Shown here: positions 3,009 to 21,441 of the stretch, piece after piece
How the letters are laid out: each line of letters starts with the position of its first letter
How positions within the stretch are numbered: position 1 is the first letter of the stretch
Assembly: GCF_028561755.1 (NCBI RefSeq)
Contig: NZ_JAQQTD010000003.1
Location: 186,001 to 250,000, forward strand
DNA: 64,000 bases
DNA from: Altibacter sp. HG106
GTDB lineage: Bacteria; Bacteroidota; Bacteroidia; Flavobacteriales; Flavobacteriaceae
Reading direction: 5' to 3'
Program-made: the position numbers and the translations under genes
Notes under the pieces: model-generated
The model's input: the letters and a program-made list of their open reading frames with translations, nothing else
Database searches by the model: none
Told to the model about the DNA's origin: nothing

Positions 3009-3741
3009 AATCTCTTAGGGCTTTTCCGGTTTTGAGAAGGAATAAGGCCTCCAGGTTTGCTACCTTGGCTTTTTCAATGAGCTGTTTAGGTTTCCCTACG
3101 CACACCATTCGCCCCTGGTCCATAATGGCAATAGTAGAACAAAGGTCTTCGGCCTCATTGAGGTGGTGCGAGGTATAAACGAGCGTCGTTCCTGCCGCGT
3201 TAAGACTTCTAATTTTTTCGAGAATTACCTGCTTCGATTGCACGTCGACGCCTACGGTAGGTTCATCTAAAAACAATACATTCGGGCGATGAAGAATTCC
3301 TGCAATGAGGTTCACACGACGCTTCATTCCGCCAGAAAACGTTTGAATTCGTTTATCTGCAAATGGCGTGAGTCCTAACGACTCTAATTCTGAAGTAATT
3401 CTATCTCTTAAAACAGCTCCTGAGACCCCGTTCATACTTCCGAAGAATAGTAAATTCTCTCGTGCGGTGAGCGAAGGATACAGCGAGTATTCTTGCGGTA
3501 CCATCCCGATGTGTTGCTGCAAATCGCGTAAGGATCGAGAAGGCCGCTCTCCGGCGATTTCAAACCACCCTGATGTAGGTGTTAGTTGCGTACACAACAT
3601 GGAAATTAAGGTTGTCTTTCCGGCGCCATTGGGTCCTAGCAATCCGAATATTTCCTTCGGCTTTACCGTTATGTCAACCAATTGGACCGAAAATCGATCG
3701 GCACCTGCATATCGTTTGCTCAACCCCTCCGCCCGAATCAT
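3001..3741 (-). CDS. ABC transporter ATP-binding protein
   Basis: 246-residue nucleotide-binding subunit for the adjacent permease. All motifs are intact: Walker A GPNGAGKTT, Q-loop in VPQEYSLYPSLTARENL, signature FSGGMKRR, Walker B VLFLDEP followed by a D-loop, and the H-loop in YTSHHLNEAE. The frame continues upstream to 3933, but those 64 residues lie in the BtrH-like gene. ATG at 3741 makes a 4-base ATGA overlap with that gene and places the beta-strand before Walker A at the normal distance. It powers export of an unknown substrate from the pigment pathway. Confidence 0.9.
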   Translation of the reverse strand: MIRAEGLSKRYAGADRFSVQLVDITVKPKEIFGLLGPNGAGKTTLISMLCTQLTPTSGWFEIAGERPSRSLRDLQQHIGMVPQEYSLYPSLTARENLLFFGSMNGVSGAVLRDRITSELESLGLTPFADKRIQTFSGGMKRRVNLIAGILHRPNVLFLDEPTVGVDVQSKQVILEKIRSLNAAGTTLVYTSHHLNEAEDLCSTIAIMDQGRMVCVGKPKQLIEKAKVANLEALFLLKTGKALRDYA

Positions 3742-4742
3742 GGTAACGTTTTTTTCAATTTTTTGAAAAACACTTTCTCCTTTTCTGCGATGGCCTCCAA
3801 TTGCGTGGCAAGGGTGTCGTAAGCACCCTCGGCCGCCAGGCTGCTTCGATCTTTGTACACGCGGGACGCTTGTAGGGCAAAATCCCGCCATTGGTCGCCA
3901 ATTTGTGTCATTTCTTGCGACATGTCGCGCCATTCAGGTTTGTTGACCACGTCGGCGGCTTCCTGCAGAAATGCCGCGTAAATATACCGGAAGCCGCCGC
4001 CGCCAGTTCCTATTTCTTCTTGCATCCTTACAATTTGCCCCAGATAATGTTTAGCGCGTTTCGGTCCTTTTTTCTCAGGCCATGAACGCACTAGTTTTGC
4101 GATCGTTTTAATCCCCTTCACGCCAACATAGGGCACGGGTGCCAGCATATCGCGACAGGTGTGTTTGATTCCCTTTAAGATGGCAGGTTTCAAATCTATT
4201 GTTTCAGGCAGTCGGATTGGATAGTACATCTGCCCTTTTGGAGCAAAGGCTCCTTTGGCAAAACGCACCCGCTCGAGCTCTTCAGAAGTAAGCGTGGTTA
4301 CCTCCTCCATCACCGGGTCGCTGATGAGATAGTGGTCGTTATCCTTTCCGTAGACTACTAGATTATGGGCATTGAAATGAAAGCGATATTCTTCCGGAAA
4401 ATAGGTAAGATGATACACCCCAACTTGAAGCCCCACCGGATTGCTGTTGGCCAAATTGGCATCCAGTTGGGCTTGCGCTTTTTTTGGATTGCTGAATTTT
4501 TCGCGTTTAAAGGTGATTCCCACACGCTTTGCAAAGCGTTTAAAGATCATGCCCGGCATGGCGCGATAGGTGATGGCCGGAGCGTGATTAACTTTTAATA
4601 GAGGAATATAGCAAAACAATAGACCCGACCCTATGCCAAAAACCATGGGTTCGCTGAAGGGAATCCCGTGGTGACGCATTAAATTAGAAACGACGCCGTT
4701 TTCGCAATGTGCTGACTGTTTATGCGTAAATTCAATTTCCAC
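3738..4742 (-). CDS. BtrH N-terminal domain / DUF4872 protein, probable acyl transferase
   Basis: 334 residues. The N-terminal half resembles the BtrH domain, a papain-like fold that in butirosin synthesis moves an acyl chain from an ACP to an acceptor. Candidate catalytic residues are Cys13 in AHCENG, His126 in FNAHNLVVYG and Asp142 in YLISDP, the Cys-His-Asp order expected for the family. The C-terminal half (about 180-334) is helical and fits DUF4872. GTG at 4742 overlaps the preceding TAG stop by one base (TAGTG), supporting the GTG start. In this cluster it could join the polyene acyl chain to the dialkylresorcinol; that is inference from the family and context. Confidence 0.8.
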   Translation of the reverse strand: MEIEFTHKQSAHCENGVVSNLMRHHGIPFSEPMVFGIGSGLLFCYIPLLKVNHAPAITYRAMPGMIFKRFAKRVGITFKREKFSNPKKAQAQLDANLANSNPVGLQVGVYHLTYFPEEYRFHFNAHNLVVYGKDNDHYLISDPVMEEVTTLTSEELERVRFAKGAFAPKGQMYYPIRLPETIDLKPAILKGIKHTCRDMLAPVPYVGVKGIKTIAKLVRSWPEKKGPKRAKHYLGQIVRMQEEIGTGGGGFRYIYAAFLQEAADVVNKPEWRDMSQEMTQIGDQWRDFALQASRVYKDRSSLAAEGAYDTLATQLEAIAEKEKVFFKKLKKTLP

Positions 4743-6036: not shown

Positions 6037-7170
6037 TTAGGCTACGGTTAAATAGGCATAGGCATACGAAAAGCGCGCACTTTCAGGAACAGAAAGTAAA
6101 ATGCGATCGCCCTTTTTCAAAGACCCGGATCGCATGAGTTCATCCAACATAATAAAGATGGAGGCCGAACCTATGTTTCCCACCTTTTTCAAGTTCATAA
6201 ACCATTTGTCCCAACCTATTTCGACTCCTTGTTTTTTCATTTCCATATAGAGTCCCTCACGAAAATAATAGGAAGAAATATGCGGTAAATAATAGTCTAT
6301 GTCATTGGGGGTAATGCCGTGCTTGTCCATGGCTCTCTTGAGGCTGTTTACACCTTTAACCAAGATGTTCTGACCTAGCAAACGGGTATCTTGTTTGATG
6401 GCAAAGAGGGACATTTTACTCCACATATCGGCGGGGTATTCGCTCCACGATTTTAAGCTGCCATCTTCTTGTTTTTCACCTCCCGCGTACATACAGGCGT
6501 CCAACTCATGAGCGTATGAATACGCTTCCATCCATTCCATGCGCAGCGGAGTCTCCCCCTTAGGTTCGGACTGTAATAGGAATGCGCCGGCCCCGTCTGA
6601 CAGCATCCAGCGTAAAAACTCTTTATGAAAAGACAGCAAAGGCTGTTCTTCTAATTCTTTGAGATAGTTAATTTCTTCTTCGAACACATCCGATTGCATC
6701 CAGGAAGAGATACGTTCGGATCCGGTACAGACGGCGGTGTTTACCTGCCCCGATTTCACAGCCAAATAGCCATACTTTAGAGCATTCATTCCCGAACAGC
6801 AGGCTCCGGTGGGCGAGTTTACTTCAAAATCTCCTGCTTTTAATTCGCCGTGCACCATGGCGGCGTGAGACGGTAGAATTTGATCGGGACTTCCAGTTCC
6901 GCAGGAAAGGAGTTCAACATCTTCAATGGCGACGTGCTCATCCAAAAGACGGATAATCGCCTCTTTCGCTAACTGCGCGTTATTGTGGGTGCTATTTCCT
7001 TCGGAATCAATCGCGTAATAGCGCGTTTCAATTTTATTATTGCGCAATACGATTCGCCGGGCCTTTGAAGTTTGACCATCTATGTAGCCAAGCTTCTCTT
7101 CCATCATTTCATTATCTACAGGGGAATTGGGTAAAAAAGATGCTGTTTTATTAATATAAACGTCCTTCAT
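6037..7170 (-). CDS. darB: DarB-like ketosynthase III (dialkylresorcinol synthesis)
   Basis: 377-residue FabH-fold condensing enzyme. The triad is complete: Cys125 in GACCSGMN, His297 in LPHISSYY and Asn332 in GNIGSAS. In dialkylresorcinol pathways DarB condenses two fatty precursors, and DarA aromatises the product to the resorcinol that forms the alkyl half of flexirubin. ATG at 7170 overlaps the DarA stop (TGATG); a TTG one codon earlier is less likely. The immediate neighbourhood of the DarA gene makes the DarB assignment strong. Its length exceeds E. coli FabH (317), as expected for this subfamily. Confidence 0.88.
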   Translation of the reverse strand: MKDVYINKTASFLPNSPVDNEMMEEKLGYIDGQTSKARRIVLRNNKIETRYYAIDSEGNSTHNNAQLAKEAIIRLLDEHVAIEDVELLSCGTGSPDQILPSHAAMVHGELKAGDFEVNSPTGACCSGMNALKYGYLAVKSGQVNTAVCTGSERISSWMQSDVFEEEINYLKELEEQPLLSFHKEFLRWMLSDGAGAFLLQSEPKGETPLRMEWMEAYSYAHELDACMYAGGEKQEDGSLKSWSEYPADMWSKMSLFAIKQDTRLLGQNILVKGVNSLKRAMDKHGITPNDIDYYLPHISSYYFREGLYMEMKKQGVEIGWDKWFMNLKKVGNIGSASIFIMLDELMRSGSLKKGDRILLSVPESARFSYAYAYLTVA

Positions 7171-8096
7171 CAAATATGCTTTGTACTCACGGATGCGTAA
7201 TACCGTTTTTGGTTCTTAATACTACGGTATCTCGGAATATAAGAAATCAAAAATACAATAAAAACCACGGGGGCAATACCCCATATGGCAAATAACAAAT
7301 AATAATTGAAGAAAACCAACCATTTGTCTCTTTTCGGACTTCCGGGAGGGCCCTTTTTGGCAATGAGATGCGCCCATTTTCCAAAGAGGATGTTTGCTCG
7401 CTGATCGGCTAACACTAAAAAAGGTTTCACTTTTACTGCGCCCATTTGCACCAGCTTTGTCTGAAGGTTATCGTAGGAATCCTGCAACAATGCATTTCTG
7501 ATAACAGGTCCAAATCGGCTGGCGTTTTTAATATCATCTTCCGAAACGCCAGGTTTGGGAAAAATCCCCCATTTCTTGGTTTTCTTACCGCCAAACATCC
7601 AATGTACAATGGTAATGACGCTTATGTGATTGATATGACGATCTACCAACACAATATTCCCGACCCATCGGGCTTGCAGATGCGTTAAGGAGGTCTTTAG
7701 CTTTTCCTGCGCCTGTGTCCACATGTTTCGAGACCCATTGATTGTAATTACGGGTGTATCTCTAAGCAATCGCGCAGCCGCTTCAGAGGTGAGGAAGGAG
7801 GTGATGGGCAAAGAGGGTGTGAGATACCAAACCTGGTATCCCAGGAGCACTAAGTCGTATTCCTTTTCGAATACCGAGGGCGCAATAGGAGCCATCGGAA
7901 TGGTTTTTTGAAGAAAAGTTTCGGGAAAAACACCAAAAAAACTTTTTTTATCCCAAGGAAACGGAAAGGGTGTTTCCGGACGAATTTCGAGCCAGGTGAT
8001 TTGAACTGACTCACCTGCCAGCGTTTGCGTAATTTGTTCTAAAATTCGCCTCAGCTGTCCGGTTTGGGAATAATATACAACTAGTACCTCTTTCAT
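7170..8096 (-). CDS. darA: DarA-like dialkylresorcinol-condensing/aromatising enzyme
   Basis: 308 residues. The N-terminal part is flavodoxin-like: a beta-strand VLVVYYSQTGQLRR with the phosphate-binding loop, and a second strand YDLVLLGYQVWYLTPSLP. The C-terminus has one or two membrane helices (WLVFFNYYLLFAIWGIAPVVFIVFLISYIP, about 262-290). This combination, next to a FabH-like partner, is the DarA family, which converts the DarB cyclohexanedione-type product to a 2,5-dialkylresorcinol. It makes an ATGA overlap with the acyltransferase gene upstream. The flavodoxin fold suggests FMN use, not shown here. Confidence 0.88.
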   Translation of the reverse strand: MKEVLVVYYSQTGQLRRILEQITQTLAGESVQITWLEIRPETPFPFPWDKKSFFGVFPETFLQKTIPMAPIAPSVFEKEYDLVLLGYQVWYLTPSLPITSFLTSEAAARLLRDTPVITINGSRNMWTQAQEKLKTSLTHLQARWVGNIVLVDRHINHISVITIVHWMFGGKKTKKWGIFPKPGVSEDDIKNASRFGPVIRNALLQDSYDNLQTKLVQMGAVKVKPFLVLADQRANILFGKWAHLIAKKGPPGSPKRDKWLVFFNYYLLFAIWGIAPVVFIVFLISYIPRYRSIKNQKRYYASVSTKHI

Positions 8097-8980
8097 TCGG
8101 TTTCGTTTGCTTCCCAGAAATCAAAATAGTTAAACCATTGCAGTGGATATTTTTTAAGCATGGTTTCTACACTCGTTACGTACTTTTGAAGGAGTCCCTG
8201 TGCGTCTCGGTTTTTGACCGTCGTAGTACGGGCATAGAGGTGGTAATGCTTATTGGTTTCTTTCATTACGTAGACAAAAAGCACCGGACTTTTCAGGCGA
8301 GAGGCTAACTTAAAAGGGCCTGCCGGAAAATGTGCCGGTTGTCCCAAAAGGGATGCTGTTAAAAACTTGCTCCCTTGCTGATAACGGTCTCCCGTGAGAC
8401 AGACGAGTTCGCCTCTAGACAAGGCATTATTAATCTCAAAAATGTGTGACAAATCCTCTTTAATGGTAATAAATTTGTTTTTTGAAACCGAACCCACGCT
8501 CTCTAGGTAGGCTTTAATGTCTTCGCGTTCGGCGTCTGTGGCCACTAAATTAATTTGGGACATTGAGTCGATTTCACGGAAGAACACTTCCGCAATTTCA
8601 AAATTCCCAACATGGGCACTTAACAAGATACCGCCCTTTTTTTCGTTGAGAAGTTGTTTGATATTCTCTATTCCATCAAATTCGTAGGTAAAGCTATCAC
8701 GCATCCCGGAAGAAATAGCCACTTTATCAATGATTGTTTTTCCGAAGACCAAATAATTAGCATAGACCGAACGGACACTCTTCCAATAAGAAAATTGCTG
8801 TCGATGCCTCAAATAATAAAATATGGCTTTAGTGCTTTGTAGCGAGAAAAAACAGTAGTAAAGGGCCACAAAATAGAGAAGCCCATAGGCCGCACGCACC
8901 CCGAAGGTGCGAAGTAACCAAATGAATATTTTATACCCAAGAACGGTGCCCTTGGATTTACCCTCCCAGCGAGTCTCCAT
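8093..8980 (-). CDS. LpxL/HtrB-like lysophospholipid acyltransferase
   Basis: 295-residue membrane-anchored acyltransferase. One hydrophobic segment (about 28-45) is followed by the catalytic HX4E motif HVGNFE (His123, Glu128) and a DRYQQGS block that binds the acceptor in LpxL-type enzymes. Members in aryl polyene clusters are thought to attach the ACP-bound polyene to a lipid or phenolic anchor. Here it may acylate the dialkylresorcinol, competing as a candidate with the BtrH-like protein. Its start overlaps the ACP gene by 23 bases and its stop overlaps darA, so translation of the three genes is coupled. Confidence 0.85.
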   Translation of the reverse strand: METRWEGKSKGTVLGYKIFIWLLRTFGVRAAYGLLYFVALYYCFFSLQSTKAIFYYLRHRQQFSYWKSVRSVYANYLVFGKTIIDKVAISSGMRDSFTYEFDGIENIKQLLNEKKGGILLSAHVGNFEIAEVFFREIDSMSQINLVATDAEREDIKAYLESVGSVSKNKFITIKEDLSHIFEINNALSRGELVCLTGDRYQQGSKFLTASLLGQPAHFPAGPFKLASRLKSPVLFVYVMKETNKHYHLYARTTTVKNRDAQGLLQKYVTSVETMLKKYPLQWFNYFDFWEANETE

Positions 8981-9242
8981 TGGCTGCTACGGTAGAAGTA
9001 TTGCTGGTTCTGTTATAAATAAGATCATAAAAATCTTGAAGGGAATTCACTCCGATAAAGTCCTCTCCAACTAGCTTCACTCCAAAATTTTCTTCAATGG
9101 TCACCACCAGATCCACGAAATCCAAGCTATCTAGTTCTAACGTCTCTTTTAGGTTCGCCTCGGGAGCAATATCTCCTTCATCTACCTCAAATTCATCTAC
9201 TAGAAATTCGTTAATTTTTTCAACGATTGCCTCTTTGTTCAT
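8958..9242 (-). CDS. Acyl carrier protein of the pigment pathway
   Basis: 94 residues, acidic and helical. The phosphopantetheine attachment site is LELDSLDFVDL, with Ser39 as the modified residue. The length is slightly above that of housekeeping AcpP (about 78) because of a C-terminal tail (NRTSNTSTVAANGDSLGG) that is low in charge and probably disordered. It carries the growing polyene for the two ketosynthases, FabG, the hotdog pair and the acyltransferase, all in the same operon. The tail overlaps the start of the acyltransferase gene. Confidence 0.9.
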   Translation of the reverse strand: MNKEAIVEKINEFLVDEFEVDEGDIAPEANLKETLELDSLDFVDLVVTIEENFGVKLVGEDFIGVNSLQDFYDLIYNRTSNTSTVAANGDSLGG

Positions 9243-9244
9243 AC

Positions 9245-10471
9245 CTAATCTATCCTTTTTACTATCAGTGCTGAATTCGTTCCTCCAAACCCGAAGGAAT
9301 TGGACAAAAATACATCAATTTTTTTATTTAACGTTTTTTTAACTAGGTTTAATTCAGCCGCACTTTCATCGGGTTCTTCGATGTTGATGTTAGGCGCCAG
9401 AAATTCATTTTGCATCATCAACATAGAGTAAATAACTTCACTGGCACCGGCCATCCAGCATTCATGACCCGTCATTGATTTTGTTGAGCTCACGTAGGGT
9501 TTGTGAGATCCAAAAACCGAAGCAATGGCCTTAGCTTCATTGGCATCGCCCACTGGAGTGGAAGTAGCATGCGCATTTACGTAATCCACTTTTTCTGGCG
9601 CCAATTGAGCCTGTTCCAGCGCTTTCTTCATGGCAGTGCTAGGTCCGTCTACATTAGGCGTAGAAATATGCTCTCCATTGCTGGAAAAACCGTACCCTAT
9701 AATCTCTGCCAATATGGGCGCCCCGCGTTTCACGGCCGCTTCATAACTCTCAATGATCAAGGTGGCCGCACCGCCACTAGGCACCAAACCGTCTCGAGCC
9801 GCGTCAAAAGGCCGAGAGGCTTTGGTAGGATCCTCTGTATTCATCGAAAACACCCCTAAGCCATCAAAACTTCCCATAGCCAGTTCATTGATCTCCTGGG
9901 CTCCTCCGCAAATGACGCAATCCTGCAAACCGGCTTTGATGAGTTGATACCCCATACCTATTGCATGCGACCCACTGGCGCAGGCTGCACTCACCGTAAA
10001 ATTAATTCCGGTGAGGCGAAAAATGGTCGATAGATTCATAGTCACAGTAGAGTTCATGGCTTTAAAAATGGCGCCAGACCCTACCAAAGTGGTATCCTTC
10101 TTTTCTCGAATTTTATCTACCGACTCGATTACCGATTTAGCGGTACTGTCATTTCCGTAGATCACTCCCACCTCATTCGAATCGAGAAAATCTTGATCGA
10201 TCTTGGCATTTTGAAGCGCTTCTTTAGTTGCCACGTAAGCATACGCCGCTTCCTCCCCTAGGCTTACTCGTTGTCTGCGGGAAAGATCGGCCTTCAGGTT
10301 AGGCATTTCCACCATTCCTGTAAGACACGAACGATAGCCAAACGCTTTTCGTTTTTCATCAAATTGAATACCCGAACGCCCTGCAAATAGCGATTCTTTG
10401 ACTTCTGCCAAATTCAAGCCGATGCAGGAATAAATTCCCATTCCGGTAATGACCACTCGTCGTTCTTTCAT
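9245..10471 (-). CDS. Beta-ketoacyl-ACP synthase, KAS II (FabF) type
   Basis: 408-residue condensing enzyme with the complete FabF set: Cys164 in SAACASGSHA, His301 in NAHATSTPVGD, Lys331 and His336 in KSMTGHECWMAGASE, and the FGGTNSAL C-terminal loop. Its length and motifs match housekeeping FabF, but its position between fabG and ACP in the pigment operon points to polyene chain extension. It starts 4 bases after the fabG gene and ends 2 bases before the ACP. It is probably the main elongating ketosynthase of the cluster. Confidence 0.9.
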   Translation of the reverse strand: MKERRVVITGMGIYSCIGLNLAEVKESLFAGRSGIQFDEKRKAFGYRSCLTGMVEMPNLKADLSRRQRVSLGEEAAYAYVATKEALQNAKIDQDFLDSNEVGVIYGNDSTAKSVIESVDKIREKKDTTLVGSGAIFKAMNSTVTMNLSTIFRLTGINFTVSAACASGSHAIGMGYQLIKAGLQDCVICGGAQEINELAMGSFDGLGVFSMNTEDPTKASRPFDAARDGLVPSGGAATLIIESYEAAVKRGAPILAEIIGYGFSSNGEHISTPNVDGPSTAMKKALEQAQLAPEKVDYVNAHATSTPVGDANEAKAIASVFGSHKPYVSSTKSMTGHECWMAGASEVIYSMLMMQNEFLAPNINIEEPDESAAELNLVKKTLNKKIDVFLSNSFGFGGTNSALIVKRID

Positions 10472-10475
10472 GTTC

Positions 10476-11231
10476 TTACGAATAAATTCCGCCGTTCATA
10501 TTAATAACTTCTCCTGTAATGTACGAAGCCTTTTCTGAAACCAAAAATGATACCAAATGCGCTACTTCTTCAGCCGTTCCGAAGCGCTGCATAGGGATCA
10601 TTCGTTTTAATTCTTTCTCATCGAGCTCGTCGGTCATGTCGGTACTAATGAACCCGGGCGCGACGGCATTTACCGTGATATTGCGTTTGGCTACTTCTTG
10701 TGCCAAGGCTTTCGTGGCTCCTATAATGCCCGCCTTTGCCGCTGAATAGTTGGTTTGTCCTGGGGTACCCTTGAGTCCGGAAACCGAAACCATATTAACA
10801 ATTCGACCGTATTTGTTGACCAGCATCTTTTGCATAAGGGTGTGGGTTACATTGAAGAACCCCCCCAGACTGGTATCGAGAACGCTGTGCCAATCTTCCG
10901 GTTTCATCCACATAAAGAGCCCGTCCTTGGTAATCCCGGCATTATTGACAATCACCTCGATAACCGCATCAGGATGTGCCTCAAGCCAATTATCAAGGGC
11001 TTGCGCAACGTTTTCAGCATCGCTCACATTAAAACCAAGAATTTCTCCCGACCCTCCCTGTTCTTTCACAGCCTCCAACGTTTCGTTCGCGGCGGCTTCA
11101 TTGCGGTTGTAATTAATGAGGATATGGTAATCGGTATCCTGCGCTAGTTGGATACAGATGGCGCGACCAATGCCTCGAGACCCCCCGGTTACCAACGCGT
11201 ATTTCACCGTTTTCTTTTGCTTTTTCTCCAT
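10476..11231 (-). CDS. fabG: 3-oxoacyl-ACP reductase (FabG family), pigment operon
   Basis: 251-residue classical short-chain dehydrogenase. The NADP-binding motif TGGSRGIG is at residues 15-22, NNAGI at 96-100, and the catalytic Ser149, Tyr162 and Lys166 lie in VSVSG and YSAAKAG. It should reduce the ketone formed by the ketosynthases before dehydration. This is the first gene of the uninterrupted minus-strand operon. The 154 bases upstream contain no exact TAnnTTTG box that I could find, so its promoter remains unassigned. A separate housekeeping fabG is expected elsewhere in the genome. Confidence 0.9.
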   Translation of the reverse strand: MEKKQKKTVKYALVTGGSRGIGRAICIQLAQDTDYHILINYNRNEAAANETLEAVKEQGGSGEILGFNVSDAENVAQALDNWLEAHPDAVIEVIVNNAGITKDGLFMWMKPEDWHSVLDTSLGGFFNVTHTLMQKMLVNKYGRIVNMVSVSGLKGTPGQTNYSAAKAGIIGATKALAQEVAKRNITVNAVAPGFISTDMTDELDEKELKRMIPMQRFGTAEEVAHLVSFLVSEKASYITGEVINMNGGIYS

Positions 11232-11385: not shown

Positions 11386-12513
11386 CTATTCTGAAAACAA
11401 TTCGGCATTTTGATACCAAACACCTCCTAGTGGGTTTCCATTCTCATCTAAAAACCCCCATTCCTTTTCGTATTTCACCCGTGCAAGACCATCGATAAAG
11501 CCTTTTTGATTATCCTTCTGAAACATAGAAAATCCACCGGCCGTAATATCGTATTGCGCCGGAATCACCATCTTTCCTTCCTTATTGATAAAACCCCAAC
11601 GCTTTTTTTCTTTTACCGGTGCTAAGCCGTTATCTGCAAAAGTTTCGGCGTCTCGGTACACAAAATCGATCACCTGATTTCCTTCAGTGTCAATATACCC
11701 CCATTTTTTATCACGATAGACGGGAGCCAGGCCATTATTGAAGGCGCGTACTTTATCGAAAGTCGGCGGAATCACCCAATTTCCTTCCGCATCGATAAAG
11801 CCAACCTTCTTATCGCTGCGGGCGTAGGTTAGTTTGGAGCCCTCGTGAAAGTCCCAAATCTTATCGACCCCTGCAATAATGTTAAAATCATTTCCGTTGA
11901 GTAACCCAAAGGAATCCCCCTTGCGCGCCCATATAGCCTGATCGCTATAATCTCCTATTTCGTCGTATTCTACGGGAACTATTACTTTTCCTTTCACATC
12001 GATCATACCCCATCGATCGTTATTTCGAACACGGGCATGCCCAGAGACGAAAGGTTTAATGACATCGTAAGTGGGTTCAAGCACCACTTCGCCCCTGGTA
12101 TTTATGAGTCCGATTTTCTTTTCTATTCGGTAGAACGCTACACCATCCTCAAAATCGTAAAATTTCTCTTGAACCGGCGTTTGGAGTATGGTTCCTGAAG
12201 GATCAATATAGTTCCATTGATCATCTTTCAGCACGAGTGCGTAGCCCGACTGAAAAGATTTTACGCGATCGTAGGTTGGCTGAATAGCCCATGCTCCTTC
12301 TTTATCAATAAACCCCCATTTCTTATCGCTCATAGCAGGAGCGAGGCCTTCCGAAAAACTATCCGCTTTCTCGTATTGGGGAGCGATAACCATGTCCCCT
12401 TCGCGATTAATAAAGCCGAAACGATCGTCATGGCGAACCATGGCAAGTTCCTGAGCAAGGCTGCCGAAGATTCCAAATAATAGGGCTGCTCCTAAAAATA
12501 GTGTTGTTTTCAT
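11386..12513 (-). CDS. Secreted WG-repeat protein
   Basis: 375 residues with a signal peptide (residues 1-20, hydrophobic to SLAQ) followed by about eleven WG repeats of the form 'KWGFIDKEGxxVIxPxYDxVxxF', each 30-35 residues. Such repeats form extracellular or periplasmic all-beta structures of unknown binding function, common in Bacteroidota. It lies 72 bases downstream of the ammonia-lyase gene on the same strand and could be co-transcribed with it. No direct link to pigment chemistry is visible. Repeat quality falls off at the C-terminus (KGFIDGLARVKYEKEWGFLDENG). Confidence 0.85.
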   Translation of the reverse strand: MKTTLFLGAALLFGIFGSLAQELAMVRHDDRFGFINREGDMVIAPQYEKADSFSEGLAPAMSDKKWGFIDKEGAWAIQPTYDRVKSFQSGYALVLKDDQWNYIDPSGTILQTPVQEKFYDFEDGVAFYRIEKKIGLINTRGEVVLEPTYDVIKPFVSGHARVRNNDRWGMIDVKGKVIVPVEYDEIGDYSDQAIWARKGDSFGLLNGNDFNIIAGVDKIWDFHEGSKLTYARSDKKVGFIDAEGNWVIPPTFDKVRAFNNGLAPVYRDKKWGYIDTEGNQVIDFVYRDAETFADNGLAPVKEKKRWGFINKEGKMVIPAQYDITAGGFSMFQKDNQKGFIDGLARVKYEKEWGFLDENGNPLGGVWYQNAELFSE

Positions 12514-12585: not shown

Positions 12586-14112
12586 TTATATTTCAGTGTC
12601 TTGAATCAATCGTTTCACTTTTTTCAAATAGGGATACATGACAATATCCTCTGAAAAAACCGGAACGAGCGCTCGAATATCGTCGTATAACGCTTTCGTT
12701 TTAGAGGAAACCTTAGATTGTAGCTCTAAACACTCAATGGCCTGAACTACAGTAATAAGCTCAATGGACAGTACTTCAAAAGCATTATCAATCACCTTCT
12801 TTGTGGTTAACGCCGCATTGGTTCCCATACTAACAATATCCTGATTGTCATTGTTATTAGGAATACTGTGAATATACATGGGGTTCGACAGCATTTGATT
12901 CTCGGCGGTGGTAGACGTGGCCGTAAATTGCACCCCCTGCATTCCGAAGTTCAAGCCCAAGGTTCCTAAATTGACAAAAGGTGGTAAAATGTCATTGAGT
13001 TTAGAGTTCAAAAGGTAGTTTAACTGTCGTTCTGAGAGCATACTAAGCTTGGTTACAGCAATTTTAAGCTTGTCCATTTCGATGGAAACATAATCACCGT
13101 GGAAGTTTCCGCCGTGATACACCTGCTTTTTGTGCACATCTACAATAGGATTATCGTTGGCCGAATTGACCTCTTCAATTAAAATTCGCTCTACAGTTCG
13201 CAGCGTATCCAATACAGGGCCCAGCACTTGAGGGACACATCGAAGGGAATAGTATTCTTGCACTTTCTCTTCGAACACCTCTACCTCTCCTTCGTTCTTG
13301 TACAAATGATGTTCGCGTTTTCGTGTCAGCTGACTATCGGTTAAATGGGCGCGCATTCGTTCGGCAATGTCACGCTGACCCATATGTTTTTTAGATTGAT
13401 TTAGCGGTTCTGACAAGTGATCATCATAGGCCTGCACGATCTCGTTAATTGCAGAGGAAGAGGCTACCATCCAATGCAGCAAACGACGTGTGTACATTGT
13501 ATTCACAATACCAATGCCCGTCATCACCGAAGTACCATTCATCAAGGCCAATCCTTCACGCAACGCCACCTCAATAGGCGCGATACCCTCCTCTTTAAAC
13601 ACCTCCGCCGTAGGTCTTCGAACGCCTTTGTGAAAAACTTCTCCTTCCCCTATAAGGACCAGGGCCATATGTGCCAATTGCACTAAATCCCCACTGGCAC
13701 CCACACCACCGTGTTCAAATACCAAAGGGATAATATCTTTATTTAGTAAGGTGGCCATTAGTTCGATGGCTGACGGATGAATTCCCGAATGCCCTAGACT
13801 CAACGTATTGAGTCGCGCTAGCATCGCAGCTTTCACATAAGTTATCGGGATAGGGTTTCCACTTCCTGAAGAATGACTGCGGATCAAATTGTATTGTAAT
13901 TGAATTCTTTCGGCGTGAGGCACCTTGTATTGCGCCATAGGACCAAACCCGGTATTGACACCGTAGATCACTTTATTTTCTGAAAAATCCTTCAAAAAAT
14001 GAAAGCTTTCTGTCACCTTCTCGATGATCTTCTCATCAATCGAAATGGGCGATTCTTTAATAACAACTTGGTAAAAATCTTTGAGCGTAAGTTCTCCTTC
14101 AATATGGTGCAT
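12586..14112 (-). CDS. Tyrosine ammonia-lyase (HAL/PAL/TAL family)
   Basis: 508 residues. The MIO-forming Ala139-Ser140-Gly141 lies in GGVGASGDLVQ and the catalytic Tyr50 loop reads VIYGVNTGFG. The substrate-selectivity site reads IRSHSSG, and the whole chain, as I recall that sequence, closely parallels the characterised Flavobacterium johnsoniae TAL, including GTSVMTGIGIV and YHGGNFHGDY. It should deaminate L-tyrosine to p-coumarate, the flexirubin starter. ATG at 14112 is preferred to the frame start at 14220, because the first 36 residues there would run through the divergent promoter. No CoA or ACP ligase for the coumarate is in the window. Confidence 0.9.
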   Translation of the reverse strand: MHHIEGELTLKDFYQVVIKESPISIDEKIIEKVTESFHFLKDFSENKVIYGVNTGFGPMAQYKVPHAERIQLQYNLIRSHSSGSGNPIPITYVKAAMLARLNTLSLGHSGIHPSAIELMATLLNKDIIPLVFEHGGVGASGDLVQLAHMALVLIGEGEVFHKGVRRPTAEVFKEEGIAPIEVALREGLALMNGTSVMTGIGIVNTMYTRRLLHWMVASSSAINEIVQAYDDHLSEPLNQSKKHMGQRDIAERMRAHLTDSQLTRKREHHLYKNEGEVEVFEEKVQEYYSLRCVPQVLGPVLDTLRTVERILIEEVNSANDNPIVDVHKKQVYHGGNFHGDYVSIEMDKLKIAVTKLSMLSERQLNYLLNSKLNDILPPFVNLGTLGLNFGMQGVQFTATSTTAENQMLSNPMYIHSIPNNNDNQDIVSMGTNAALTTKKVIDNAFEVLSIELITVVQAIECLELQSKVSSKTKALYDDIRALVPVFSEDIVMYPYLKKVKRLIQDTEI

Positions 14113-14171
14113 CTTCAAAAAACGGTTTTTGGATGGCGCAAAATAAAAAATAATATAGGTTCTTTGAAGTG

Positions 14172-14179
14172 CAAATGTA
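14172..14179 (-). promoter_or_regulatory. -7 box of ammonia-lyase promoter
   Basis: TACATTTG on the minus strand matches the Bacteroidota -7 consensus TAnnTTTG exactly, about 60 bases before the ATG at 14112. No clear TTG was found at the -33 distance. Confidence 0.55.
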
Positions 14180-14197
14180 GAATAAATAAAGTATCTA

Positions 14198-14205
14198 TAT
14201 CTTTG
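14198..14205 (+). promoter_or_regulatory. -7 box of the halogenase-like gene promoter
   Basis: TATCTTTG on the plus strand is an exact TAnnTTTG box ending 13 bases before the ATG at 14219, so the 5' leader would be only a few bases. With the opposed box at 14172 it forms a compact divergent promoter that could co-regulate starter synthesis and ring modification. Confidence 0.55.
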
Positions 14206-14218
14206 CAGTACTGGCACC

Positions 14219-15463
14219 ATGAAAAAAACAGAAGTAGATGTATTGATTATCGGAGCCGGACCATCCGGTTCTGTAGCAGCGGCTTACCTGCATCAACAAG
14301 GATGCAAGGTGAAGGTTGTGGAGAAGAATTCTTTCCCTCGCTTTGTTATTGGGGAGAGCTTACTACCGCGTTGTATGGACCACTTTCAGGAAGTGGGATT
14401 GCTCGAACCCCTAAAAGATTTTGGGTTCGAAGAAAAACACGGAGCGCGATTTATGAAGAATGGAAATGTGTGTCATTTTGACTTCAGCAAAAAACACACA
14501 GACGGTTGGAATTGGACTTGGCAGGTGCCTCGCGCCGATTTTGATAAAGTGCTCACAGATACACTGCAAGAAAGAGGCGTGGATATTGCGTTTCAGCAAG
14601 AAGTAATTGCGGTATCTTTTGATGAAGACGGAGCTTCCCAAACCCAAGTAAAGGATGCTAACGGACAGGTGCAGGAAATTAGCGCACGTCACATCATTGA
14701 CTCTAGCGGATACGGAAGAGTACTTCCACGTCTTCTCGGCTTGGAAAAACCCTCTTCGCTGTCGGTGCATTCTTCTATGTTTACCCATGTAGTCGATACC
14801 AATAGACCTGCGGGAAAAGAAGGAACACTAATCACATTCGACGTGGTACGAGACGATTCGTGGATCTGGGTCATTCCATTTTCCAACGGCATCACCAGTC
14901 TTGGCTTTGTAGGCCCTACAGCATATTTAGAGTCATTAGACGGAAGTCCGGAAGAGCGCTGGAAAACACTATTGGAGCACTCAAGCTATTATGCCGATCG
15001 CTTTAGAGATACCCCTCCGCTTTTTGGACCCTACGAAATAAAGAATTATTCCAAGGCGGTCACAAAACTCTACGGAAAAGGCTTCGTATTAACCGGCAAT
15101 AGCGCAGAGTTTTTAGACCCGGTGTTTTCTTCGGGGGTTACCTTCGCTACAGAATCGGCGTTGCGCGCAGCAACACTGGTAGCACACGAATTGAAAGGAG
15201 AAAGAGTAGATTGGGAAAATGACTATCGCAAATATATCGAGAAAGGCGTGGGTGTTTTTAGAACCTATGTCAAAGAATGGTATACCGGAAATCTTCAGAA
15301 GATCTTCTTCCATGAAAAAGAAAATCCCGTTATCAAGCAACAAATTTGTGCCGTCTTAGCAGGATATGTCTGGGACGATACGAATCCGTTTGTGAAAAAC
15401 CACCATCGGTTGGTAAAAACTGTGGCACATATCGTGGACCTAGAAACAACGCAAGCCACGTAG
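14219..15463 (+). CDS. Flavin-dependent halogenase-like FAD monooxygenase
   Basis: 414-residue FAD enzyme. It has the dinucleotide motif GAGPSG (13-18), GESLLP (45-50), the halogenase-type Lys73 in EEKHGARF (K-x-G-x-x-F) and the WxWxIP motif WIWVIP at 215-220. A second FAD segment, TGNSAEFLDPVFSSGV, lies near 286. WxWxIP is thought to restrict monooxygenase activity in flavin halogenases, and flexirubins are often ring-chlorinated. It may therefore chlorinate or hydroxylate the coumaroyl head. It is divergent from the ammonia-lyase gene with back-to-back promoters. It could instead be a related reductase of the same superfamily; no halide specificity can be read from sequence. Confidence 0.82.
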   Translation: MKKTEVDVLIIGAGPSGSVAAAYLHQQGCKVKVVEKNSFPRFVIGESLLPRCMDHFQEVGLLEPLKDFGFEEKHGARFMKNGNVCHFDFSKKHTDGWNWTWQVPRADFDKVLTDTLQERGVDIAFQQEVIAVSFDEDGASQTQVKDANGQVQEISARHIIDSSGYGRVLPRLLGLEKPSSLSVHSSMFTHVVDTNRPAGKEGTLITFDVVRDDSWIWVIPFSNGITSLGFVGPTAYLESLDGSPEERWKTLLEHSSYYADRFRDTPPLFGPYEIKNYSKAVTKLYGKGFVLTGNSAEFLDPVFSSGVTFATESALRAATLVAHELKGERVDWENDYRKYIEKGVGVFRTYVKEWYTGNLQKIFFHEKENPVIKQQICAVLAGYVWDDTNPFVKNHHRLVKTVAHIVDLETTQAT

Positions 15464-18380: not shown

Positions 18381-19649
18381 ATGAAGTACATAATTAAAAG
18401 AGATTTTAGCAAGAAACCTTTTCAGTTAGAGAAGATTACAGAAGCTATTTTAAAGGCGATGACCGCCCAAGGCAAAGGAAGTCGCGATGCGGCACAAGAC
18501 GTTTCGCTGGCAGTGTATCAAACACTTATGGAGCGACAGGAAGTAGATGAAAATTACATCCCTACGATCGAAGAAGTGCAGGATATCGTAGAGACCAAAC
18601 TCATGGAAGGAAAATTCCCGGAAGTGGCAAAGGCCTACATCCTGTATCGGAATAAGCGCGCACTGGAACGCAAAAGCGATATTTTCGAAAAACGCATTAA
18701 TCTCAAACCCTACGAATATCCACAATTGTATGAATATGTTCCGGCCATTCGCCATTCGTATTGGATTCATACCGAATTCAATTTTACAAGCGATATTCAA
18801 GATTTTAAATCACGCCTCAATGATGTAGAACGCAGCGCGATCACCAACGCGATGTTGGCCATCTCTCAAATTGAAATCGCTGTAAAAACCTTTTGGGGCG
18901 ATTTGTATCATCGCATGCCCAAGCCCGAAATAGGCTCGGTGGGTGCTACCTTTGCGGAAAGTGAAGTGCGACATGCCGATGCGTACTCACATTTGCTTGA
19001 AGTCTTAGGATTGAACGAAGAATTTAAAGAGCTCAAAAAGAAACCTGTTATCATGAAGCGGGTTCAGTATTTGGAAAGCGCCTTGAAAAATGCGAAGAGT
19101 GACGACAATCAGCAGTATGCCGAAAGTATTTTATTGTTTTCGCTATTCATCGAGCACGTTTCCCTATTCTCCCAGTTCTTAATTATCATGGCGTTCAACA
19201 AGCATAAAAACATGTTGAAAGGGGTTTCAAATGTGGTGGAAGCAACGTCGAAAGAAGAACAGATTCATGGGGATTTTGGTATTGACCTTATCAAAATTTT
19301 GAAAGAAGAGAACGAAGAATGGTTCACACCAGAATACCATAAGATGATTCAAGACATGTGCTATCAAGCCTTCGACGCAGAGCGCGATCTAGTGGATTGG
19401 ATCTTTGAAGCAGGGGAACTCGACTTTCTTCCAAAAGAAGTAGTCAACGAATTCCTTAAAAATCGATTCAATAATTCTCTTGAGAGCATTGGAATCGAGA
19501 AGATCTTCAATGTGGACAACGCTATTTTAGCAAAAACAGAATGGTTTGATGACGAAATCATTGGAACCAAACACGGCGATTTCTTCGTGAAACGCTCCAT
19601 CAACTACAGCAAAAGAACACAAAGTATAACCAGCGACGACCTTTTTTAA
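18381..19649 (+). CDS. nrdB: Ribonucleotide reductase class I small subunit with N-terminal ATP-cone
   Basis: 422 residues, about 80-90 longer than a plain NrdB. Residues 3-92 are an ATP-cone (YIIKRDFSKKPFQLEKITEAI ... VAKAYILYRNKR), normally found on NrdA. Metal ligands of the ferritin-like domain are visible: Glu165 (likely), Glu195 and His198 in SEVRHAD, Glu258 in LFIEHV, and Glu293/His296 in EEQIHGD. Tyr202 sits at the position of the E. coli radical tyrosine (four after His198). This architecture is known from Leeuwenhoekiella blandensis, where dATP acts through the small subunit. It generates the radical for NrdA, encoded one base downstream, to make dNDPs. Confidence 0.93.
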   Translation: MKYIIKRDFSKKPFQLEKITEAILKAMTAQGKGSRDAAQDVSLAVYQTLMERQEVDENYIPTIEEVQDIVETKLMEGKFPEVAKAYILYRNKRALERKSDIFEKRINLKPYEYPQLYEYVPAIRHSYWIHTEFNFTSDIQDFKSRLNDVERSAITNAMLAISQIEIAVKTFWGDLYHRMPKPEIGSVGATFAESEVRHADAYSHLLEVLGLNEEFKELKKKPVIMKRVQYLESALKNAKSDDNQQYAESILLFSLFIEHVSLFSQFLIIMAFNKHKNMLKGVSNVVEATSKEEQIHGDFGIDLIKILKEENEEWFTPEYHKMIQDMCYQAFDAERDLVDWIFEAGELDFLPKEVVNEFLKNRFNNSLESIGIEKIFNVDNAILAKTEWFDDEIIGTKHGDFFVKRSINYSKRTQSITSDDLF

Positions 19650-19650
19650 T

Positions 19651-21441
19651 ATGCAAGACTCACACCAAAAAACACAACAGGCCCAAACGACCCAGAAACC
19701 CAATCAGAACTTGGTAAACGCCCGAAAAGAAACCTTAAAAGAGGTTGAGAATAAAGGGAAAACCGGATCTTTTGAATGGCTCAACAAAAACAGTCGAAAA
19801 TTTCTTGCGGCCGGGTATCTTTCTCCCGGCGTAAGTGCAGAACAACGCATCCGAGAGATCGCAGATCGCGCCGAGGAAATCCTAAAGATTCCTGGGTATT
19901 CTGATAAGTTCTACAATTACATGTCTGAAGGTTACTTTTCGTTAGCCTCTCCCGTGTGGTCTAACTTCGGAAAACAACGCGGACTGCCAATTAGCTGTTT
20001 CGGATCGCATATTGACGACGACATCGGAAATATTCTCTACACGCAATCTGAGGTGGGAATGATGTCGAAACTAGGGGGTGGAACCTCTGGGTTTTTTGGA
20101 AAGATTCGACACCGGGGCGCTCCTATCAAGAATAATGGGGAAGCTTCCGGAGCAGTCCATATTATGCGCTTGTTCGAATCAATGGTCGATGTGGTAAGTC
20201 AGGGATCTGTACGTCGTGGACGATTTTCACCCTACCTTCCCATTGAGCACGCAGACATCATGGAGTTCTTAGAAATCGGAACCGAAGGAAATCCAATTCA
20301 GGAGTTGACACACGGTGTTACCGTGAGCAACGAGTGGATGGAAGAAATGATCGCTGGCGATGTGGATAAACGTACCATTTGGGCTAAGGTACTACAGAGT
20401 CGTGGTGAAATGGGGTATCCTTATATCTTCTTTAACGACAATGCGAATAAAGCTGCGGCTGATGTTTACAAAGACAAAAACCTACCCATCTACGCGAGTA
20501 ATTTGTGTACCGAAATCATGCTTCCATCGAATCATGACTGGTCCTTTGTTTGCGTCCTTTCTAGCGTAAACGTGCGATACTACGACAAGTGGAAAGACAC
20601 CGATGCCGTTGAAACCATGGTGTTCTTTTTGGATGCGGTGATTACCGAGTTTTTAGAAAAATTGGAGGGGTATCGCGACTCATCCGACCGAGAAGACCAA
20701 CAAACCTTCTTGTTTATGGAGCGGGCGTACAACTTTGCCAAGGAAAACCGTGCTTTAGGATTAGGAGTATTGGGCTGGCATTCTTTACTTCAGTCGAAAC
20801 GTCTGCCCTTTAACAGTCAAAAAGCCTACGATTTAAACAGCGAGATCTTCAGAGAAATCAAGGAGCGCTCGTACAAAGCTTCCGAAGAGCTTGCTGATCT
20901 TTTTGGGGAACCAGAAGTATTGAAAGGGTACGGACGTCGCAACGCAACCTTGAATGCCGTGGCCCCTACAACCTCTTCCGCATTTATTCTCGGACAAGTT
21001 TCTCAGGGGATTGAACCCATTTGGTCTAACATTTACGTGAAAGACATCGCAAAAATTAAAACCACAATCAAGAATCCCTTCTTAATAGAATTGCTACAGG
21101 AAAAAGGAATGGATACGCCTGAGGTTTGGAAGGATATTCGAAACATGGATGGGTCGGTACAACATCTTGATTTCCTCACGGAAGAAGAAAAAGAAGTGTT
21201 CAAGACCTATTCTGAAATCGATCAAATGGATATCATTTATCAGGCCGCTAACCGTCAAAATCACATTGATCAGGGGCAATCGCTAAATATTATCGTGCAT
21301 CCTGATATGCCAACGAAAGAGATCAATAAAATACACGTAACGGCCTGGAAACTAGGGTTAAAATCCTTGTACTATCAACACAGTATGAACGCTGCACAAA
21401 AATTCAAACAAAAGAAAGATTGTGCAAGTTGTGAAGCATAA
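19651..21441 (+). CDS. nrdA: Ribonucleoside-diphosphate reductase large subunit lacking the ATP-cone
   Basis: 596 residues, much shorter than E. coli NrdA (761) because the ATP-cone is absent. Active-site residues are present: Cys116 in LPISCFGS and Cys301 in FVCVLSSVN as the redox pair, and Asn284, Cys286, Glu288 in SNLCTEI as the radical site. The radical-relay tyrosine pair is in SLYYQHSM, and the C-terminal shuttle cysteines are at 591 and 594. It reduces ribonucleotides with the radical from NrdB. Since the ATP-cone sits on NrdB, overall activity control must come from that subunit; the specificity site should still be in NrdA. Confidence 0.93.
   Translation: MQDSHQKTQQAQTTQKPNQNLVNARKETLKEVENKGKTGSFEWLNKNSRKFLAAGYLSPGVSAEQRIREIADRAEEILKIPGYSDKFYNYMSEGYFSLASPVWSNFGKQRGLPISCFGSHIDDDIGNILYTQSEVGMMSKLGGGTSGFFGKIRHRGAPIKNNGEASGAVHIMRLFESMVDVVSQGSVRRGRFSPYLPIEHADIMEFLEIGTEGNPIQELTHGVTVSNEWMEEMIAGDVDKRTIWAKVLQSRGEMGYPYIFFNDNANKAAADVYKDKNLPIYASNLCTEIMLPSNHDWSFVCVLSSVNVRYYDKWKDTDAVETMVFFLDAVITEFLEKLEGYRDSSDREDQQTFLFMERAYNFAKENRALGLGVLGWHSLLQSKRLPFNSQKAYDLNSEIFREIKERSYKASEELADLFGEPEVLKGYGRRNATLNAVAPTTSSAFILGQVSQGIEPIWSNIYVKDIAKIKTTIKNPFLIELLQEKGMDTPEVWKDIRNMDGSVQHLDFLTEEEKEVFKTYSEIDQMDIIYQAANRQNHIDQGQSLNIIVHPDMPTKEINKIHVTAWKLGLKSLYYQHSMNAAQKFKQKKDCASCEA

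Follow-up and report, generated by a model that had tools for sequence, protein, structure and literature searches.

A halogenase-family protein of flexirubin gene clusters is a candidate for chlorinating the pigment's aromatic ring

We analyzed a stretch of 64,000 nucleotides from Altibacter sp. HG106 (the window), which encodes a 414-amino-acid flavoprotein next to genes for flexirubin biosynthesis. This protein is almost certainly a halogenase-family member of the flexirubin pathway. The best reading is that chlorination of the flexirubin ring is the natural job of the enzyme, which we call FlxK. A first-pass annotation of the window had already proposed a flexirubin ring halogenase. Its assignments to the family and the pathway hold up; chlorination itself is fairly likely, and the chlorine-free pigment of Chitinophaga pinensis, which has an orthologue, counts against it.

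Flexirubins are widespread pigments of the Bacteroidota that serve as taxonomic characters, and chemical work has established that they can be chlorinated. No enzyme for this chlorination is named in the literature that we surveyed, which included some papers in part; older papers and PMC11187115 ('flexirubin' and 'halogenase') lie outside that survey.

Motifs, profiles, and predicted fold

The gene is intact and contains an FAD-binding motif and three halogenase motifs (conservation is given for the 69 orthologues described below):

14219..15463, + strand: FAD-dependent halogenase-family enzyme (FlxK orthologue), intact ORF of 414 amino acids, identified from Pfam, HMMER, and an AlphaFold model with its fold matches
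14252..14269, + strand: FAD-binding Rossmann motif GAGPSG (GxGxxG), codons 12-17; G12, G14, and G17 invariant in 69/69
14435..14452, + strand: KHGARF, codons 73-78; K73 aligned with the halogenase lysine; K73, G75, A76, and F78 invariant in 69/69
14861..14878, + strand: WIWVIP (WxWxIP), codons 215-220; W215, W217, I219, and P220 invariant in 69/69
15110..15136, + strand: FLDPVFSSG (FxxPxxSxG), codons 298-306; F298, L299, D300, P301, F303, S304, S305, and G306 invariant in 69/69

KHGARF (with K73) and WIWVIP lie where the first-pass annotation had placed them, and FLDPVFSSG adds a third motif. The window has 96 stop-to-stop frames that span 100 amino acids or more; KxGxxF occurs in five of them, WxWxIP in one, and FxxPxxSxG in one. 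Only the frame of ORF 14219-15463 has all three, so chance is excluded. We take the lysine that aligns with K73 to be catalytic in known halogenases, and the motif names are likewise those that we take to be in use.

To assess conservation, we reduced 78 matches to 71 distinct sequences and dropped two with under 45% identity (L082 and L083), leaving 69 orthologues, the window protein included, at 49-100% identity. The motif residues are among 84 positions that never vary. The only invariant lysines are K36, K73, and K373. A C-terminal block (around 376-385) is also invariant and is proper to the flexirubin group, as compared with PltA, Mpy16, Bmp2, and ChlB4. HMMER aligns K73 with a lysine of CndH (KRGGTF), PltA (KFGAAW), FasV (KYGGSL), ChlB4, and Bmp2, and in PltA, Bmp2, and ChlB4 both halogenase motifs align as well. 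None of the three motifs is present in an FAD-dependent paralogue from the window's own genome (L002) or in L083, a reductase-like homologue from another genome.

L082 (2685-6207; G042:C13, Flavobacteriaceae) carries a second halogenase-like gene, with 109 bits to Trp_halogenase and the motifs KPGVKF, WIWAIP, and FLDPIFSSG. Its neighbours are an acyl-CoA dehydrogenase and an ORF with the look of an AMP-ligase on visual inspection, an arrangement that resembles a PltF/E/A-type pyrrole unit.

The best Pfam match of the window protein is Trp_halogenase (PF04820; E = 4.4e-25, 88.9 bits, cut-off 21). The best NCBIfam match is the model for CmlS, at 154 bits, far under its cut-off of 900, so the protein is not CmlS. 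Among the best 25 of 73 matching NCBIfam models, none covers this protein with a score over its own cut-off. We rejected a flavoprotein maturase of the QhpG/LodB type (QhpG 101 bits, cut-off 240; LodB 97 bits, cut-off 400) and membership in the geranylgeranyl reductase superfamily (TIGR02032, 106 bits, cut-off 158.8).

With the single sequence as a query, phmmer finds 3nix as the closest protein of known structure, followed by CndH, FasV, Bmp2, ChlB4, Mpy16, PltA, and CmlS. We also built a profile and a structural model from a 60-row alignment (A1: 59 of the 69 orthologues plus L082). 3nix scores 626 bits against the profile; CndH, PltA, ChlB4, FasV, Mpy16, and CmlS score 216-234 (202-234 with Bmp2); RadH scores 156; and the tetracycline halogenase and PltM score 95-96. 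The best non-halogenase is a reductase (3oz2, 72 bits). Tryptophan halogenases reach at most 47 bits, under 3oz2, so the kinship is only with the variant B halogenases (the CndH/PltA type).

The AlphaFold model (60 sequences, modelled without FAD) has a pLDDT of 92.8 and a pTM of 0.92. In a fold search, 3nix is first (Z = 59.9), and ranks 2-10 are all halogenases (Z = 45.2-36.7), including PltA, ChlB4, Mpy16, Bmp2, FasV, CndH, RadH, and CmlS. The best monooxygenase folds are PHBH-type hydroxylases, with Z scores of 35.2 and less, below all of the halogenases. Foldseek gives the same first group. Motifs, profile scores, and fold ranking thus bear out the proposed family. The fold, the motifs, and the alignments do not by themselves prove halogenation, and the earlier warning that this family has non-halogenating relatives was fair: according to PMC7876137, the monooxygenase QhpG is structurally closest to the halogenase CmlS.

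The closest known protein, 3NIX from Cytophaga hutchinsonii, is 49% identical over 404 aligned residues (rmsd 1.1). It was deposited by structural genomics merely as a 'flavoprotein/dehydrogenase', with its function unassigned. By sequence it appears to be an orthologue of the window protein, which suggests a likely function for a solved structure. The pyrrolyl carrier-protein halogenases PltA, Mpy16, and Bmp2, together with ChlB4, are more distant (Z = 44-45 over 385-403 residues, 23-25% identity), and their substrates differ from flexirubin's. CndH, the chondrochloren halogenase (3E1T; 234 profile bits, 28% identity), and FasV (8ZOP; 220 profile bits, 25% identity) also have different products.

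The flexirubin cluster

The flexirubin context that the first-pass annotation had described is confirmed by NCBIfam, as FlxA, FlxB, DarB, DarH, FlxY, and LolB2 all score above their cut-offs. The window, together with the preceding 20 kb, also has genes for ketosynthases (KS), DH, acyltransferase, ABC, LolA, and MMPL proteins. The genes of interest are:

12586..14112, - strand: flxA, tyrosine ammonia-lyase, for the 4-coumarate starter (NF053541, 881 bits, cut-off 700); start set at 14112 rather than at the longest-ORF start, 14220
11386..12513, - strand: WG-repeat protein between flxA and flxB (Pfam PF14903)
10476..11231, - strand: flxB, ketoreductase (NF053542, 424 bits, cut-off 340)
9245..10471, - strand: FlxC-type ketosynthase; 65-92% identity in the mapped clusters that have it, 31% in L079
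8958..9242, - strand: acyl carrier protein (ACP), recognized by eye (LDSLD) in the ORF sequence; position conserved
8093..8980, - strand: LpxL-like acyltransferase
7170..8096, - strand: DarA-like (weak flavodoxin match), presumably DarA, as it adjoins DarB
6037..7173, - strand: DarB, dialkylresorcinol ketosynthase (NF053539, 647 bits, cut-off 550)
3738..4742, - strand: DarH, BtrH-related acyltransferase (NF053550, 518 bits, cut-off 300)

The WG-repeat protein is present in all nine of the mapped loci with flxA and the halogenase head-to-head (L003-L010 and L012), with two copies in L003. In the 20 kb before the window (L047:7619-9157), the cluster encodes another FAD enzyme, a CrtD/carotenoid-isomerase-type protein that is conserved in C. 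pinensis and could act on the polyene. Elsewhere in the window (18381-21441), the small subunit of a ribonucleotide reductase has an N-terminal ATP-cone and is followed immediately by a short large subunit (NrdE-prime).

The orthologue occurs only with FlxA in three genome samples

We searched three samples of genomes for FlxK and FlxA. (The samples overlap in part and their member genomes are related, so Fisher values overstate independence.) Among 199 Flavobacteriaceae, the orthologue is present in 45 and FlxA is above its cut-off in 45, and these are the same genomes. (Some match at E = 0.001 is found in 96 of the 199; the orthologues score at least 518 bits and the next match scores 103.) Across the phylum, 30 of 375 genomes have the orthologue (at least 441 bits, with four candidates scored per genome and G372 dropped at 77 bits) and 32 have FlxA. 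The two with FlxA only are G294 and G426, and scoring every candidate in them confirmed that they lack the orthologue. In the family of G560, the orthologue is in 19 of 70 genomes (at least 441 bits, plus one split copy and one partial copy) and FlxA is in 23; G603, G622, G623, and G630 have FlxA only. No genome in any of the three samples has the orthologue without FlxA. Within these samples, the orthologue is strictly tied to the flexirubin pathway.

In searches for the orthologue alone, it was found in 59 of 60 genomes from the genus of G574 (which includes C. pinensis, G684) and, with five candidates per genome, in 138 of 358 genomes from the genus of G127. In a search for FlxA alone, a control genome, Bacteroides ihuae, passed the cut-off.

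Orthologues in most of the sampled FlxA genomes (45/45, 30/32, and 19/23) are odd for an optional decoration, and this counts against a simple chlorinase. An alternative is that FlxK, although of the halogenase type, has a core role in assembling the aryl polyene, either without halogenating or by halogenating transiently (a cryptic step); we think this fairly unlikely. A more specific proposal, which we consider unlikely, is that FlxK serves polyene synthesis as a core redox or structural component, with a halogenase fold that never halogenates or does so only transiently and a mature pigment that is free of halogen. G426 bears on this in two ways. It has the only mapped FlxA cluster with the full set of polyene genes and no orthologue. 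But it does have that full set, along with a methyltransferase, and no orthologue at E = 0.001 anywhere in the genome. This gene content suggests that the pathway can probably do without FlxK, and it makes G426 a natural strain with the polyene genes and no copy. Also, KS/KR/DH, TAL, and DarA/B already account for the chemistry of the polyene, the ring, and the resorcinol, and one would not expect K73 and WxWxIP to be invariant in an enzyme with a core role.

We also considered whether FlxK is an optional gene that is freely lost, which was not borne out, as a compact cluster is seen in four (G294, G603, G623, and G630) of the six genomes that have FlxA but no orthologue. In the stretches read, these clusters have no matches for ACP, LpxL, TE, or Lol/MMPL proteins and no close FlxC-type ketosynthase (31% identity in G294). 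(The cluster in G603 is seen in part, as the contig ends inside it, and G622 is outside the mapped set.) The compact clusters in L079, L116, L117, and L118 (which covers part of its cluster) perhaps make a different aryl-polyene product.

C. pinensis and the chemistry of the pigment

In C. pinensis, an intact orthologue (50% identical to the window protein) lies inside the flexirubin cluster, next to a methyltransferase. The gene order is FlxA, FlxB, KS, ACP, acyltransferase, DH, (gap), TE, KS, methyltransferase, halogenase, small conserved ORF, (gap), KS, KS, deacetylase, LolA, LolB, DH, GT2, MMPL, CrtD-like, C45, (gap), FlxY. If these are given letters from A to Y and each gap is counted as one gene, the ketosynthases are at C, I, N, and O, the small ORF is at L, and DH is at F and S. 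In the excerpted text of PMC3992019, the ketosynthases are at C, I, L, N, and O and DH is at F and S. Because the lettering agrees with the published text, we infer from gene position that FlxJ is the methyltransferase and FlxK the halogenase.

In Flavobacterium johnsoniae UW101 (G828, 1252130-1253365), the orthologue is 56% identical to the window protein, has intact motifs, and is head-to-head with flxA in the flexirubin cluster. We found no match to the methyltransferase in the 40 kb that was read. FlxK is a precise candidate for the chlorinase in this tractable strain.

According to the same excerpts, the known variations of the flexirubin polyene ring are chlorination and methylation (PMC3992019). 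In the published account, the main flexirubin of C. pinensis, from LB with 5 g/l NaCl, is C43H54O4, with no chlorine and with one methyl group derived from methionine. Feeding with d4-tyrosine gave M+3, so one of the four ring deuteriums was lost and the ring is substituted at the methyl position only.

The first-pass annotation had named pigment without chlorine as evidence against its proposal, and for one orthologue, that of C. pinensis, this is in effect what the formula shows. The intact flxK and the chlorine-free pigment of C. pinensis imply that chlorination is minor or conditional, or that the enzyme does something else, such as the core role considered above. Why the pathway retains this enzyme when its main pigment is unchlorinated is a puzzle. 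A minor chlorination route would reconcile the gene with the chemistry. In C. filiformis, 5-chloroflexirubin has been reported as a minor pigment.

The methyltransferase partner and a possible hydroxylase

The query in our methyltransferase searches was the G426 gene, a member of the Methyltransf_2 (O-methyltransferase) type. Among genomes of the G560 family, the orthologue and the methyltransferase are adjacent, on the same strand, and at most 411 bp apart in 17 of the 18 genomes that have both of them and FlxA. (In the exception, G579, they are on different contigs.) In L109 and L112, the pair lies among other polyene genes, with flxA distant or on another contig. In C. pinensis, too, the methyltransferase is next to the halogenase, whereas the window's genome has no such gene at E = 1e-40. 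The orthologue occurs without the methyltransferase in 21 of the 45 Flavobacteriaceae, including the window's genome, and in G560. We rejected a trade-off between the two genes: among the FlxA genomes of the family of G560, 18 have both, one has the halogenase only, none has the methyltransferase only, and four have neither. (Another member of that family, G627, has the methyltransferase with neither FlxA nor the orthologue, on a 7.2-kb contig that breaks off just behind the methyltransferase.)

The pairing raises the prospect that FlxK is an aromatic hydroxylase, so that hydroxylation and then methylation by the adjacent enzyme would yield a methoxy ring. FlxK shares its overall fold with PHBH-type hydroxylases (Z of about 35), QhpG illustrates that the wider family can oxygenate, and the methyltransferase of G426 is of the O-methyltransferase type. 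We nevertheless find a hydroxylase distinctly improbable. The four oxygens of C43H54O4 are taken by the phenol, the ester, and the resorcinol hydroxyls, so no hydroxylase is needed, and the methyl group from methionine goes with the loss of a single ring deuterium. The two genes are also separable, as the methyltransferase is without the orthologue in G426 and the reverse also occurs, and WxWxIP and K73 are marks of halogenases.

Proposed mechanism

Returning to chlorination, we infer that FlxK, as an FAD-dependent enzyme of variant B (the CndH/PltA type), halogenates with chloride, and likewise the site and the timing given here. The steps follow the general chemistry of flavin halogenases. 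A separate flavin reductase would supply FADH2, which would react with O2. Chloride would attack the resulting flavin hydroperoxide to give hypochlorous acid, which would travel down a tunnel to Lys73. In other halogenases, the corresponding lysine lies about 10 A from the flavin. The oxidant held there would then chlorinate the ring carbon next to the phenol hydroxyl of a 4-coumaroyl or longer polyenoyl chain. During this step the substrate is probably tethered through a thioester to the acyl carrier protein of the cluster, and the ACP at 8958..9242 is a possible carrier. The reaction would yield the chlorinated flexirubins already described by chemists.

Alternatively, FlxK could be a true halogenase with another substrate, such as the ring of the dialkylresorcinol, tyrosine or coumarate in the free form, or some other metabolite. 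The halogenase marks fit this as well, resorcinols are reactive, and the substrate is not readable from the sequence. But in the excerpts from PMC3992019 the known chlorination sits on the polyene ring, and the gene is beside flxA or between polyene genes, even in C. pinensis, where the DAR genes are away from the cluster that holds flxK. We consider another substrate very improbable.

A similar role has been proposed for the halogenases of xanthomonadin-type clusters, which act in a sister class of pigments; we liken them to FlxK by role, not by sequence. According to PMC3691225, a halogenase gene is found in the aryl-polyene clusters of Xanthomonas, whose pigments are brominated, and Lysobacter lacks both the gene and the bromination. 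Azoarcus breaks the rule that the presence of a halogenase follows bromination: its arcA is termed a halogenase, but the published description of arcuflavin is of a nonbrominated pigment.

Divergent layout and promoters

The divergent arrangement with the starter-forming lyase, which the first-pass annotation had pointed out, is real and conserved. In the window, the two start codons are separated by:

14113..14218, no strand: divergent intergenic region, 106 bp, with one TAnnTTTG box towards the halogenase (14198-14205, +) and one towards flxA (14172-14179, -)

The head-to-head layout is kept in 42 of the 45 Flavobacteriaceae, with the ends of the matches 108-233 bp apart. In the exceptions, the halogenase is about 32 kb away (G157), 1.1 Mb away (G023), or on another contig (G084).

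We take TAnnTTTG to be the Bacteroidota-type -7 box. We looked for it in 48 intergenic regions, hand-picked from the 69 loci by leaving out those that are not head-to-head and some close relatives. A box that faces flxA is present in 43 of the 48, at 51-87 nt from the flxA start (3.8 expected), and a box that faces the halogenase is present in 15, at scattered positions (5.4 expected). (Expected counts are from single-base shuffles, which do not keep dinucleotides.) The promoter facing flxA is well conserved, and the one facing the halogenase is weakly conserved.

Outside the Flavobacteriaceae, the Chitinophagaceae bacterium LY-5 (L010) has a layout like theirs, head-to-head with a WG-repeat protein and no methyltransferase, which is possibly due to horizontal transfer.
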